Of a DNA stretch of 13,142 nucleotides, positions 4,616 to 7,905 are shown in pieces. A program made the position numbers and the translations under genes. Each line of letters opens with the position of its first letter. The first letter of the stretch is position 1. The stretch is from Methylacidiphilaceae bacterium (GTDB lineage: Bacteria; Verrucomicrobiota; Verrucomicrobiia; Methylacidiphilales; Methylacidiphilaceae), in assembly GCA_028687155.1 (NCBI GenBank), contig JAQUAR010000016.1:1-13142 (forward strand), written 5' to 3'. The notes under the pieces were generated by a model. The model saw only the letters and a list, made by a program, of their open reading frames with translations, ran no database searches and had not been told where the DNA came from.

Positions 4616-4999
4616 ATGAAACGAACATGGTCCGCAGGCGCGAAGGCGCTATCGGTGAGTGCTCTGGCTCTCTTCCTCTCCTCTCCATTGCATGCCCAGG
4701 ATTCTTCGAGCTCCTCCCAGGGAGCCGAGTCTGGGGCCGCCACGCAGGAGAACCATCTCCATCACCACCGGTTGCACCGGCAGGTGCATGAAAATCATGA
4801 GAAGACGCGACGTCTCATGGACCGCCAAGACGCCGAATTGCGACGTCTGACGGAGGAGATGAACCAGGCACCTGCCGACAAGAAGCTCGATCGTGCCTGC
4901 GCCGTGATCAACAAGCTCGTCGAGCAGCGGAAGGAAATGCATGACGCAATGGAAGGCATGCATCAAAAGTGGATCCATCAGATGGGCGAAGGGAAATAG
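4616..4999 (+). CDS. Small His-rich periplasmic helical protein, paralogue of next gene
   Basis: The 127-aa protein has a signal peptide ending PLHA/QD (cleavage after residue 27), a Ser/Gly-rich linker, and a His cluster at 47-61 containing seven His. A charged, predicted all-helical core (62-123) follows, with QDAELRRL, DKKLD and LVEQRKEMH. Three further His lie near the end. The core aligns without gaps to residues 76-128 of the next gene's product. I do not recognise a named family. The size, helicity and periplasmic location recall Spy/CpxP/ZraP-like envelope-stress or metal-binding proteins, but the LTxxQ repeats are absent, so this is only an analogy. The His cluster could bind Cu, Ni or Zn. 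No Shine-Dalgarno is visible. A weak -10-like TAGCAT lies at 4577-4582, and a GGAAC element near 4540 could belong to an ECF-type promoter. Confidence 0.7.
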   Translation: MKRTWSAGAKALSVSALALFLSSPLHAQDSSSSSQGAESGAATQENHLHHHRLHRQVHENHEKTRRLMDRQDAELRRLTEEMNQAPADKKLDRACAVINKLVEQRKEMHDAMEGMHQKWIHQMGEGK

Positions 5000-5056: not shown

Positions 5057-5086
5057 TTGAGTGACGGATGGAGCAACGTCTATTAC
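5057..5086 (+). promoter_or_regulatory. Candidate promoter upstream of the Pro-tailed paralogue
   Basis: TTGAGT (5057-5062), an 18-bp spacer and TATTAC (5081-5086), each a 4/6 match to consensus. A start near 5093 would place the hairpin at 5112-5132 in the leader of the downstream gene. Confidence 0.3.
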
Positions 5087-5111
5087 GCATTCGAGTTCTC
5101 TGCGAGGTCTT

Positions 5112-5132
5112 GTCACCCGCAGTTCGGGTGAC
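5112..5132 (+). repeat. Perfect 8-bp inverted repeat (hairpin) in a leader
   Basis: GTCACCCG (5112-5119), a 5-nt loop and CGGGTGAC (5125-5132) form a perfect 8-bp stem. It lies between the two paralogous genes. No U-run follows on either strand, so a classical terminator is unlikely. A leader structure or an operator palindrome are the alternatives. Confidence 0.55.
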
Positions 5133-5186
5133 CGGCGGCCTGCGATCGCCTTGTTTCGAATGTCGTCCTCTTCCCTATCCCTTCGC

Positions 5187-5708
5187 ATGAGTTGTTTCAT
5201 CTCCCGACGGGCCTTCCGCATCTCTTCTTCTGCCTGGGGGCGAATCGCCGTGCGGCTTGGCCTAGCCGGAGCCTTCTTCGGCACCATGTTTGCCGAATTA
5301 CGGCCGGCAGCGGGGCAACCCGTTGCCTCGCCAGTCCTCGCTCGGCCTACACCCGCACAACAGCGCCAGATTCAACAGATGCAAGAACGCTTGCGGAAGA
5401 TCACCCGCGAGCAGGACGACGAGTTGGAGCGCCTCCTAGGCGAATTGCACGGGGCTTCCCGCGACAAGAAGATTGATCTTTTGTCCCGCATCGTGACCCG
5501 CCTGATCGAACAGAGGAAGGCCTTTCACGAGGAGACTGAAGCCGTCCGCCTGAGGATTCTCGACATGCAAAATCCTCCCGCCCCTCTGCCTCGAGCCACG
5601 GCTCCCCTTCCCCCTCCTGCACGCGCGGTCGAGAAGCCGGCCTCCTCGGAACCCGCGGAAACTCCACCAGCCTCTTCCGAACAAGGCTACCTGCCCCAGC
5701 AGCAGTAG
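5187..5708 (+). CDS. Exported helical protein with Pro-rich tail, paralogue of previous gene
   Basis: From ATG 5187 the product is 173 aa. A basic N-terminus (SRRAFR) and hydrophobic segment (about 23-37, LGLAGAFFGTMFAEL) form a signal peptide or anchor with probable cleavage near AAG/QPV. A helical core (56-128) contains QDDELERLLGE, DKKID and RLIEQRKAFHEE. A Pro/Ala/Ser-rich tail (129-173) ends in QQQ. The core shares QDxEL-RL-E, DKK-D and EQRK--H with the preceding gene in an ungapped alignment, so the two are tandem duplicates that diverged. The His cluster of the first protein is missing here and a Pro-rich extension has been gained, perhaps a peptidoglycan-spanning or protein-binding linker. 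The start is uncertain: ATG 5160, ATG 5187 and GTG 5250 (preceded by GGGGG) are all in frame, and none has a strong Shine-Dalgarno. Function unknown. Confidence 0.65.
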   Translation: MSCFISRRAFRISSSAWGRIAVRLGLAGAFFGTMFAELRPAAGQPVASPVLARPTPAQQRQIQQMQERLRKITREQDDELERLLGELHGASRDKKIDLLSRIVTRLIEQRKAFHEETEAVRLRILDMQNPPAPLPRATAPLPPPARAVEKPASSEPAETPPASSEQGYLPQQQ

Positions 5709-5741: not shown

Positions 5742-5972
5742 TCAGCGCCCGCCAGCGTCGACTTCCTCGACGACATCCTGGTTGAGAAACTCCGCGTAGG
5801 CCGGCGGGGGAGTTCTCTCCCGCTTCAGCAGGCGGTAGCCCGCCCAGACGAAGGCTCCCACCACGCCGAGCACGAGGACCAGCAGGAACAATCCGGCAAC
5901 CAGCCCTGCCCGTTCCGCTTGGGTTCCGACCGACGCGGACATCGCTTCGGGAGTTAGGAGCGTGTTCAGCAC
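5742..5972 (-). CDS. Small single-TM protein downstream of oxidase subunit I
   Basis: A 76-aa protein from a GTG start at 5972. It has a short N-terminus, one strong transmembrane segment (about 22-47, LVAGLFLLVLVLGVVGAFVWAG cut short here as LVAGLFLLVLVLG onward), a basic stop-transfer YRLLKRER and an acidic tail with NQDVVEEVD. Topology is likely N-out/C-in by the positive-inside rule. It follows the oxidase subunit I gene on the same strand after 91 bp. Small one-helix proteins in this position often act as oxidase accessory subunits (compare CcoQ or subunit IV types), but there is no sequence match I can name. A second possible start is the ATG at 5942. It ends 33 bp from the convergent paralogue gene. 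Confidence 0.55.
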   Translation of the reverse strand: MLNTLLTPEAMSASVGTQAERAGLVAGLFLLVLVLGVVGAFVWAGYRLLKRERTPPPAYAEFLNQDVVEEVDAGGR

Positions 5973-6063: not shown

Positions 6064-7905
6064 CTAGACCTGCACCCGCGCGGCGGGCGCCTTTGCCTCC
6101 GCAGGCGGCTCCCACTGGGGGAGGAAATCCCGCTCAGCCCCGGGAACGCTATATTCGTAGGGACCGCGATAGACAGTGGGAGCCACCGGAAAGTTCCCAT
6201 GTCCAAGCGGGGGAGTGGGAGTCGCCCACTCAAGGGTGGTTGCTTGCCACGGATTATCGGATTTCACCTTCTCTCCGTATTTCGCACTCCAGAAGAAATT
6301 GATGATAAATGGAATTTGTGCGAGCGCCAGCAACCAGGCTGAGATCGACATCACATGGTTGAGCCAAAGGACGTGCTGCGCGAACTGCCAGCCTGCCCCC
6401 CCGTCGTACCAACGCCGGTGCATCCCGTTCATGCCCTGGATCAGCATCGGGAAGAAGACGCCGTTGAAAAAGAGGAGAGTCGGCCAGAAATGGAGCTTCC
6501 CGAGGAAGTCGTTCATCATGCGGCCCGTCACCTTCGGATACCAGTAGTAGATCCCGGCAAAGAGAGCCATGAGCGAGGTCGGTGCCATCATGTAGTGGAA
6601 GTGGCCCACCACATAGTAGGTGTCGTGAAGGACGAGGTCCGAGGAACTCCACCCGTTCGGGAGCCCGGTCAAGCCGCCGATGGCGAAGAGGGGAAGCCAG
6701 GACAGGGCGAAGAGCATCGGCAGGTTGACGCGGATCGACGCCCCCCACAGGGAAAGGAGAAACACCGTTCCAATGAGTACCGAGGGAATCGAGATCAGCG
6801 TGGTGAAGATCTGGAAAAAGGTCGTCACGCCTTGGCCCATGCCCGTCATGTACATGTGATGCGCCCAGACGATCATCCCAACCAATCCGATGGCGATTTC
6901 GGAGTAGACGATCGCCCGGTAGCTCCAGAGTGGTCTGCGGGTATTGTTCGTCCAAATCTCCGCAATGATGCCCATGGTGGGGAGGATCTGGACGTAGACC
7001 TCGGGATGCCCGAGAAACCAGAAGAGGTGTTGCCAAAGGAGCGGAGCACCGCCTCCGCTGACCGCCACCCGCTGTCCTCCAACGATCAGGCCGTCGGGGG
7101 AAAAGAAGCTCGTTCCGGCGAGCCGATCCATGAGCTGCATGACGGCGGCGGCCTCGAGCGGCGGAAAGGCCAGGAGCATGAGGAAGGCGGTGACAAGTTC
7201 AGACCAGACGAAGATCGGGAGCCGCATCCAGCCCAGCCCCGGCGCCCGGAGCTGGAAGATGGTCGTGATCATATTGATGGTTCCCAGCAGCGAACCGGTG
7301 ATGTTGAAAGCCATCCCGAGCAGCCAGACGGTCTGGCCATTGAGAACCGGGTGAAATCCCGGTCCAGAGTCGGCAAGATCCGCCAGCGGAGGATAGGAGG
7401 TCCATCCCGACTTTGCCGCACCACCCGGCACAAAAAAGCTCGCGACCATAATGACGACACCCACGAAGAAGCACCAGAAGCTCGCCATGTTGAGCCGAGG
7501 GAAGGCCATGTCGGGAGCGCCCAGCTTGAGAGGAACGATGTAGTTGCCGAACCCCGCAAAAAGCGCGGGCACGAGCGCCATGAAGATCATAATGGTCCCG
7601 TGAATCGCCCCGAATGAGTTATACAGCTGGGGCGTCATGACTCCCCCCGGAGCCATGTTCGATCCGAAGACCTGCTGCATCAGGTGCGCAAAAATGGGCA
7701 CGGGCTTCCCTGGATAGGAGAGCTGCCAGCGCATGAAAATCATGAGGACGAACCCGAAGAGACCCATCAGCAGCGAGGTCACCATGTACTGGATGCCGAT
7801 CACCTTGTGATCGACGGAGAAGACCCACCGTTTCCACCAGGGCAAAGGCTCCCCGTGCCCATGTTGCCCCGGTTGCACGGGATTTTCCGTCATGTGGCTG
7901 TCCAT
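6064..7905 (-). CDS. ctaD: Heme-copper terminal oxidase subunit I (A-type), K-channel Lys absent
   Basis: This 613-aa polytopic membrane protein is the catalytic subunit of an aa3-type oxidase, reducing O2 to water while pumping protons across the inner membrane. The key residues are present. Heme a ligands are H102 (GAIHGTIM) and H437. The high-spin heme ligand is H435 (VVGHFHYM). CuB ligands are H300, H349 and H350, and Y304 in GHPEVY is the Tyr cross-linked to H300. The D-channel has N121, D132 and E302. Propionate arginines R497/R498 (GMHRRWY) are also there. Unusually, the K-channel Lys position is I378 (SIPSVLIG instead of VPTGIK) and the K-channel Ser is A315. A short extra stretch precedes GGGAPLLWQH. 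The N-terminus (MTEN..GQHGHGEP) and C-terminal tail are hydrophilic. The ATG at 7905 has a strong Shine-Dalgarno, GGAGGAGG at 7 nt. No subunit II, subunit III or assembly gene is adjacent; the only downstream partner is the 76-aa TM protein. Electron donor unknown. Confidence 0.95.
   Translation of the reverse strand: MDSHMTENPVQPGQHGHGEPLPWWKRWVFSVDHKVIGIQYMVTSLLMGLFGFVLMIFMRWQLSYPGKPVPIFAHLMQQVFGSNMAPGGVMTPQLYNSFGAIHGTIMIFMALVPALFAGFGNYIVPLKLGAPDMAFPRLNMASFWCFFVGVVIMVASFFVPGGAAKSGWTSYPPLADLADSGPGFHPVLNGQTVWLLGMAFNITGSLLGTINMITTIFQLRAPGLGWMRLPIFVWSELVTAFLMLLAFPPLEAAAVMQLMDRLAGTSFFSPDGLIVGGQRVAVSGGGAPLLWQHLFWFLGHPEVYVQILPTMGIIAEIWTNNTRRPLWSYRAIVYSEIAIGLVGMIVWAHHMYMTGMGQGVTTFFQIFTTLISIPSVLIGTVFLLSLWGASIRVNLPMLFALSWLPLFAIGGLTGLPNGWSSSDLVLHDTYYVVGHFHYMMAPTSLMALFAGIYYWYPKVTGRMMNDFLGKLHFWPTLLFFNGVFFPMLIQGMNGMHRRWYDGGAGWQFAQHVLWLNHVMSISAWLLALAQIPFIINFFWSAKYGEKVKSDNPWQATTLEWATPTPPLGHGNFPVAPTVYRGPYEYSVPGAERDFLPQWEPPAEAKAPAARVQV

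Follow-up and report, generated by a model that had tools for sequence, protein, structure and literature searches.

K362 of Rhodobacter is a textbook residue of the K-channel of heme-copper oxidases. The A1-type K-channel of Paracoccus denitrificans comprises Lys354, Ser291, Thr351, and Tyr280, and the B- and C-type oxidases, which lack a D-channel, have "alternative K-channels" that use Ser, Thr, and Tyr and contain no lysine (available text of PMC3084760). By distance to the CA of Y288, the levels of the K-channel lie at 23.4 Å (H96-E101), 19.1 Å (E101-S365), 15.5 Å (S365-K362), 12.8 Å (just below K362), 10.4 Å (K362-T359), and 7.3 Å (T359-Y288) (available text of PMC9687966). Transmembrane helix 2 (TM2) of subunit II borders the entrance cavity together with helices VII and VIII, and a missing Glu101 seems to be replaced by a bound bile acid (available text of PMC10095113). 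Within family A, K-channel variants have been mapped in archaea, with seven losses under one hypothesis, which the main text of that study disfavors (PMC8239418).

Here, we analyze a subunit I gene (COX1) in a 13,142-nucleotide stretch of DNA from a Methylacidiphilaceae bacterium (the window), together with the clade to which it belongs, which is called K-less below. The clade shares with the aa3 oxidase of Rhodobacter sphaeroides (PDB 1m56) the fold, the heme and CuB ligands, the GHPEVY motif with its Glu and Tyr, the D-channel residues, and a CuA subunit II. It differs from that enzyme in lacking K362 and S299, in carrying Glu or Asp at the Pro108 position of subunit II (COX2), and in a CuA loop that reads CxQxC and not CxExC. 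A K pathway without lysine would be common to the clade and the B and C types as described in the available text of PMC3084760; unlike these, the clade keeps the D-channel and adds an acid in subunit II. With the archaeal variants it has in common a family-A enzyme without a canonical K-channel, but the main text of PMC8239418 names no compensating residue, whereas the clade has the subunit II acid; overlap with Supplementary Figure 7 of that study is possible. K-channels without lysine are already known. No description of a subunit II acid in place of the K-channel lysine was found in the literature within reach, which left out most subscription journals and all supplements.

The window gene encodes a family-A subunit I without the K-channel lysine

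The COX1 gene (7905..6064, minus strand, start codon ATG) encodes a family-A heme-copper oxidase subunit I of 613 amino acids. It lies on contig C16 of a 1.89-Mb, 83.6% complete assembly of a Methylacidimicrobium-like genome. A Pfam profile scan matches the fold to PF00115 at 434 bits, and the closest solved relatives, by HMMER against structures, are the aa3 oxidases of Rhodobacter and Paracoccus. Among the best 120 of 8000 COX1 homologues, the closest named protein is that of Methylacidimicrobium sp. AP8 (89% identity). The NCBIfam CtaD_CoxA equivalog model TIGR02891 scores 550 bits on this protein, below its curated cutoff of 670.75. The dN/dS values against three orthologues (0.045, 0.067, and 0.054) indicate that purifying selection acts on the gene.

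No gaps are needed when HMMER aligns the protein with Rhodobacter subunit I (1m56_A) from WAHHMY to LWGASI, across helices VI to VIII, which bears out both the alignment of the original prediction and the two replacements read from it. PSVLI pairs with PTGIK and places Lys362 (Rhodobacter numbering) on Ile378 (codon ATT, 6772..6774, minus strand), and Ser299 falls on Ala315 (codon GCG, 6961..6963, minus strand). The replacement is conserved in relatives: position 378 is I in 105, L in 15, and K in none of the best 120 of 8000 homologues, which were picked by score alone. This conservation excludes chance and the base-call error that had been considered for codon 378. ATT is two changes away from a Lys codon. 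Position 315 in the same 120 homologues is A in 97, G in 16, T in 3, S in 2, and C in 2.

Across 26 aligned clade members, no variation is seen at the six metal-ligand histidines (H102, H300, H349, H350, H435, and H437), which we take to serve heme a, heme a3, and CuB, or at Y304, N121, D132, N139, and E302; the retention of the ligands, Y304, D132, N121, and E302 had been anticipated from the window alone. The E-V-Y at codons 302 to 304 (6994..7002, minus strand) holds the equivalents of Glu286 and Tyr288, and Asp132 (7510..7512, minus strand) marks the entrance of the D-channel. The protein thus has the COX1 fold, the six His ligands, and the D-channel residues of a family-A subunit I, namely N121, D132, N139, and the Glu286 equivalent in GHPEVY. 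The B type is marked by the absence of D-channel residues (available text of PMC3084760), which are present here. Of the canonical A1 K-channel set of Lys, Ser, Thr, and Tyr, only Tyr304 is kept, the other positions being occupied by Ile378, Ala315, and Ser375.

Subunit I sequences without the lysine form a large clade

Among 82 rows from fetched loci, the Lys362 position is K in 30, I, L, V, or M in 51, and a gap in 1. For the residue counts that follow, K-less rows were defined by the absence of Lys (168 with the window, L001, and 167 without it), so that "no Lys" holds by construction; that grouping plays no part in the tree described below or in the set of 120 homologues, which were selected by score. 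Four rows were set apart, namely, the fragment L003 and L064, L078, and L084, which have no Lys and fall outside the 53-row clade of the tree.

The S299 position is A in 125, G in 23, T in 8, S in 6, C in 3, I in 1, and V in 1 of the 167 K-less rows besides the window, and S in all 30 Lys-bearing rows. At the S365 position, the 167 rows carry A (117), C (20), V (16), S (11), or T (3), and N stands in 30/30 Lys-bearing rows. Ser372 (6790..6792, minus strand), at the Ala356 position, is Ser in 167/167 other clade rows and Ala or Gly in 30/30 Lys-bearing rows, and T380, at the F364 position, is Thr or Ser in the former (167/167) and Phe in the latter (30/30). Ser375 (6781..6783, minus strand), at the Thr359 position of the upper K-channel, is no special change, since 29/30 Lys-bearing rows carry Ser there too. 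Glu251 in TM5 (7153..7155, minus strand) is found in 160/167 other clade rows, the seven exceptions being Q (4), M (2), and A (1), and in 0/30 Lys-bearing rows. Gln365 is nearly strict (162/167 clade rows), and the cutoffs used yield 32 clade-specific positions in subunit I.

These counts bear on the chain of polar residues suggested by the original prediction, which ran through T380, T370, and T362. Its first member holds up as a conserved Thr or Ser; residue 370 is Leu, and position 362 is variable. Because it lies two residues past the lysine site on the helix, T380 should point away from that site, and Ser372 is a better candidate than any of the three.

A tree of 86 COX1 rows, built by a quick method with SH-aLRT as the only support and with the Lys column kept in, places 53 K-less rows on one branch (SH-aLRT 100). 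The 30 Lys-bearing rows and L084 lie on the other side, L064 and L078 fall beside the clade (89), and the presence or absence of Lys requires two changes. Record titles, which in the case of metagenome-assembled genomes may err, assign clade members to eight phyla: Verrucomicrobiota, Acidobacteriota, Planctomycetota, Omnitrophota, Marinimicrobia (Fidelibacterota), Bacteroidota, Myxococcota, and Hydrogenedentota. Some records are titled groundwater (e.g., L014, L033, and L046). Because the clade spans eight phyla, an acidophilic lifestyle, first offered as a possible cause of the lysine loss, is not supported.

The loci sampled for COX1 number 80 of at least 594. A survey of the class gave COX1 matches at 1e-100 in 218/286 genomes, a figure that was not used as a K-less count because Lys-bearing oxidases match as well. 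The 18 best newly named survey loci (L131 to L148), a biased choice, were all K-less when read. Taken by sequence, the loss of the lysine is a property of a large clade and not of one odd gene.

The window gene is an orphan copy of subunit I

No COX2 or COX3 adjoins the window COX1, which is an orphan paralogue. It is followed by an open reading frame for a small protein with one TM segment, 76 amino acids as listed (5742..5972, minus strand), which resembles a small TM protein encoded two genes upstream of COX2 on contig C135; PPPAYAEFL is common to both. On the plus strand, 4616-4999 and 5061-5708 encode two adjoining small proteins without a Pfam match. They look alike by eye in a helical segment that includes DKKxD and EQRK and might be paralogous.

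A second COX1 of the K-less family, cut by the contig end, is located on contig C98 and is preceded by ACIII genes and by genes for a CcoN-like protein and a cytochrome c. The genome yielded one clade-type COX2, on contig C135, and the search of this 83.6% complete assembly for COX3 found none. Two relatives have COX3 in the stretch from COX1 to COX2, which in the source genome falls between contigs C98 and C135. A closed genome of the same genus has cytochrome c and ACIII genes followed by COX1, COX3, a small TM gene, and COX2. A second closed genome, from a different genus in the family, has the order ActC, ActD, and ActF (labels assigned by similarity), CcoN-like protein, cytochrome c, COX1, COX3, COX4, small TM, small CC, and COX2. 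A natural fusion of COX1 and COX3 (925 amino acids, L149:2394-5171, minus strand) occurs within a K-less operon, and no natural COX2-COX1 fusion was present in the four loci examined.

The CcoN-like protein encoded between the ACIII genes and cytochrome c on contig C98 (L088:5896-7377) has relatives in L007, L023, L024, L027, L028, L035, L036, and L043. The L024 protein keeps the oxidase His motifs HLN, AHN, HH, and HAH, presumably those of CcoN. The protein of the source genome and the relatives other than L024 no longer have the His motifs of CuB and the high-spin heme and, for this reason, look like an oxidase subunit decayed to a noncatalytic one. According to the available text of a review, the ACIII of these bacteria adjoins a cbb3 oxidase (PMC8498564), and the CcoN-like gene may be the oxidase meant there. 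The position of the operon COX1 of the source genome downstream of ACIII genes is shared with the ACIII-linked aa3 oxidase of Flavobacterium johnsoniae (available text of PMC8361435).

Six single-contig genomes of the family (G004, G005, G007, G010, G011, and G012) contain two COX1 genes each, all 12 K-less, and one full-length clade-type COX2 each. By the coordinates, about 3 kb or less separates COX2 from one COX1, and the second COX1 is at a distance of 150 kb or more. An additional weak COX2 match in G010 is short and has an internal stop. Across 13 family genomes, including the source, at least two COX1 matches were found in 12 and one in G008. The layout of two COX1 genes and one COX2 in relatives indicates that the window gene is a retained isoform of subunit I. 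Its partner would be the COX2 on contig C135, shared with the operon COX1, as this is the only COX2 of the clade type found in the 83.6% complete assembly. Paracoccus likewise has two subunit I genes with shared partner subunits.

Subunit II of the clade carries an acid in TM2

TM2 of canonical COX2 starts with LE(V/I)xWTxxP, the Glu of which is Glu101 at the K-channel entrance. The corresponding start in the K-less clade is LE(I/V)xV(A/V)xxExxLL, with a second Glu seven residues past the first. MAFFT, hhalign with two profiles, and HMMER against Rhodobacter 2gsm_B agree that this second Glu coincides with the conserved Pro (E101+7). Glu or Asp occupies the position in all 40 clade loci with a readable TM2, i.e., 39 in the COX2 alignment (38 in the column and L052 one column off) and L016, and in 120/120 of the best 120 of 1472 COX2 homologues (E 108, D 12). 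Among 29 Lys-bearing loci, none has an acid there (P 19, T 9, V 1), 26 of them being in the alignment (P 16, T 9, V 1) and the others L075, L081, and L085 (all P). These last three are ACIII-linked Bacteroidota loci, which, unlike the clade, keep both the Lys and the Pro. Not in the alignment are L004, the second of the L034 hits, and those loci in which no CuA pattern was matched (L010, L012, L014, L016, L031, L041, L043, and L049 in the clade; L070, L075, L081, and L085 among the Lys-bearing loci). L016, L075, L081, and L085 were read separately for TM2, and L049 is cut before TM2.

Apart from this acid, no position between +1 and +19 is acidic in the best 120 of 1472 COX2 homologues; polar residues occur at +2 and +15 in roughly one quarter of these sequences, and at no other position in this range more often. 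The Glu101 equivalent is present in most clade loci and absent in L015, L039, L042, and L047, where the TM2 acid is kept. In the COX2 on contig C135 of the source genome, the acid is E80. Counted to the P-side Trp, TM2 of the clade is shorter by three residues.

The same pattern is seen within the order. Pro stands at E101+7 in each of the six distinct COX2 genes of the genomes with the lysine (G014, G015, G016, G018, and G019); the TM2 motif of these genes was read by eye, as pairwise BLAST misaligned that column. The 13 K-less genomes have E (G000, G001, G003 to G007, G009 to G012, and G017) or D (G008); G002, with a partial COX2, was left out of the comparison. The COX2 of G013 has E at this position, and no COX1 was found in that genome.

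The CuA loop reads CxQxC in 39/39 clade loci and in 120/120 of the best 120 of 1472 COX2 homologues (e.g., L086:1390-2181, minus strand). Lys-bearing loci have CxExC in 24/26 and CxQxC in 2/26, and L075, L081, and L085 have Lys at that place. The Glu of the canonical CxExC loop also binds Mg.

A second family without the lysine has a new acid in subunit I

The L064/L078 family resembles the clade in the loss of Lys362 and S299, in Ser at the A356 position, and in its D-channel residues, which are kept. It differs in the place of the new acid, which in this family is a Glu of subunit I, at the 361 position (Leu377 in the window COX1), and in the clade belongs to subunit II. The best 120 of 7999 homologues (P0241 to P0360) have Glu at 361 in 120/120, M (102), I (11), L (6), or T (1) at the Lys362 position, Ser at A356 in 120/120, and Ala at S299 in 119/120; all are at least 72% identical to the query, and this invariance weighs less because the homologues are close to one another. 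One homologue of this type bears the name "Alternative cytochrome c oxidase subunit 1." In subunit II, which was read at both L064 and L078, the Pro is retained and the Glu101 equivalent is absent. A new buried acid near the lysine site thus seems to be a feature of both K-less families that were examined in number.

L084 has Val at the Lys position, lacks the TM2 acid as well, and has Gln for a CuB His (GQPEIY for GHPEVY). It may not be an oxidase, because a CuB ligand is changed.

DISCUSSION

We propose, with a rough probability of 60%, that the K pathway of the clade has been rebuilt around the TM2 carboxylate of subunit II, a position derived from helix register and published distances. 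Seven residues correspond to two helical turns, a rise of about 10.5 Å on nearly the same face, which would put the acid about level with the missing K362. It could instead sit one turn higher, near the Thr359 level, because TM2 is shorter to the P-side Trp. Under this proposal, the K pathway would still feed Tyr304 in the reductive half of the cycle. The TM2 carboxylate would replace Lys362 of helix VIII as the internal proton carrier, protons would pass from it through water and Ser375/Ser372 to Tyr304, and the D-channel would operate as usual. The orphan subunit I would act as an isoform that draws on the same single COX2 as the operon-encoded one. The original prediction had left the choice between a different proton path and an altered mode; these data favor the former and give it a specific form, an invariant subunit II acid roughly level with the missing lysine. 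Since lysine loss and acid gain lie on one branch, their correlation within the clade amounts to one event, and an intramembrane Glu can be structural. L084, where the lysine is lost and TM2 has gained no acid, also speaks against the proposal, although a CuB His is changed there too.

A structural or assembly role for the acid would fit a true loss of the K pathway, in which chemical and pumped protons all enter via the D-channel. In its favor, the clade has lost K362 and S299 and in most rows has A, C, or V at S365, with the D-channel residues intact; K-channel losses in family A are discussed for archaeal lineages in the main text of PMC8239418. However, a true loss predicts the decay of both the Glu101 equivalent and the TM2 acid, and the first is kept in most clade loci and the second strictly, which leaves this explanation unlikely.

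Less likely again is a K pathway made of water and a Ser/Thr chain, roughly like that of the B type, with no internal protonatable group. S372, S375, and T/S380 are all present in 167/167 other clade rows, and the B-type alternative channel has Thr, Ser, and Tyr for the A-type residues (available text of PMC3084760), but such a chain would leave both the TM2 acid of subunit II and Glu361 of the second K-less family unexplained. The distribution of Glu251, common in the clade and absent from Lys-bearing rows, could suggest that this residue of TM5 takes over the function of the lysine. Seven clade rows do without it, however, and TM5 is on the D-channel side of subunit I and not on the K side, so that we consider this very improbable. 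A misalignment, base error, or pseudogene, in which the Lys is really present or the gene dead, might be suspected in an orphan gene with no COX2 or COX3 neighbor but is rejected on the gap-free alignment, the absence of K from the best 120 of 8000 homologues, a dN/dS of about 0.05, and orthologues in closed genomes.

Two points reach beyond this gene. For annotation, both scanned members of the clade fall below the cutoff of the NCBI CoxA model. As to mechanism, we lean toward the generalization that what the K pathway requires is a titratable group buried at the height of K362, which need not be a lysine and need not come from a particular subunit, the group being the TM2 carboxylate in a multiphylum clade and a Glu one residue away in the second family. 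A K-less clade with an acid in the partner subunit would then be evolution's own comparison on the role of the lysine, whether as carrier, charge, or valve.
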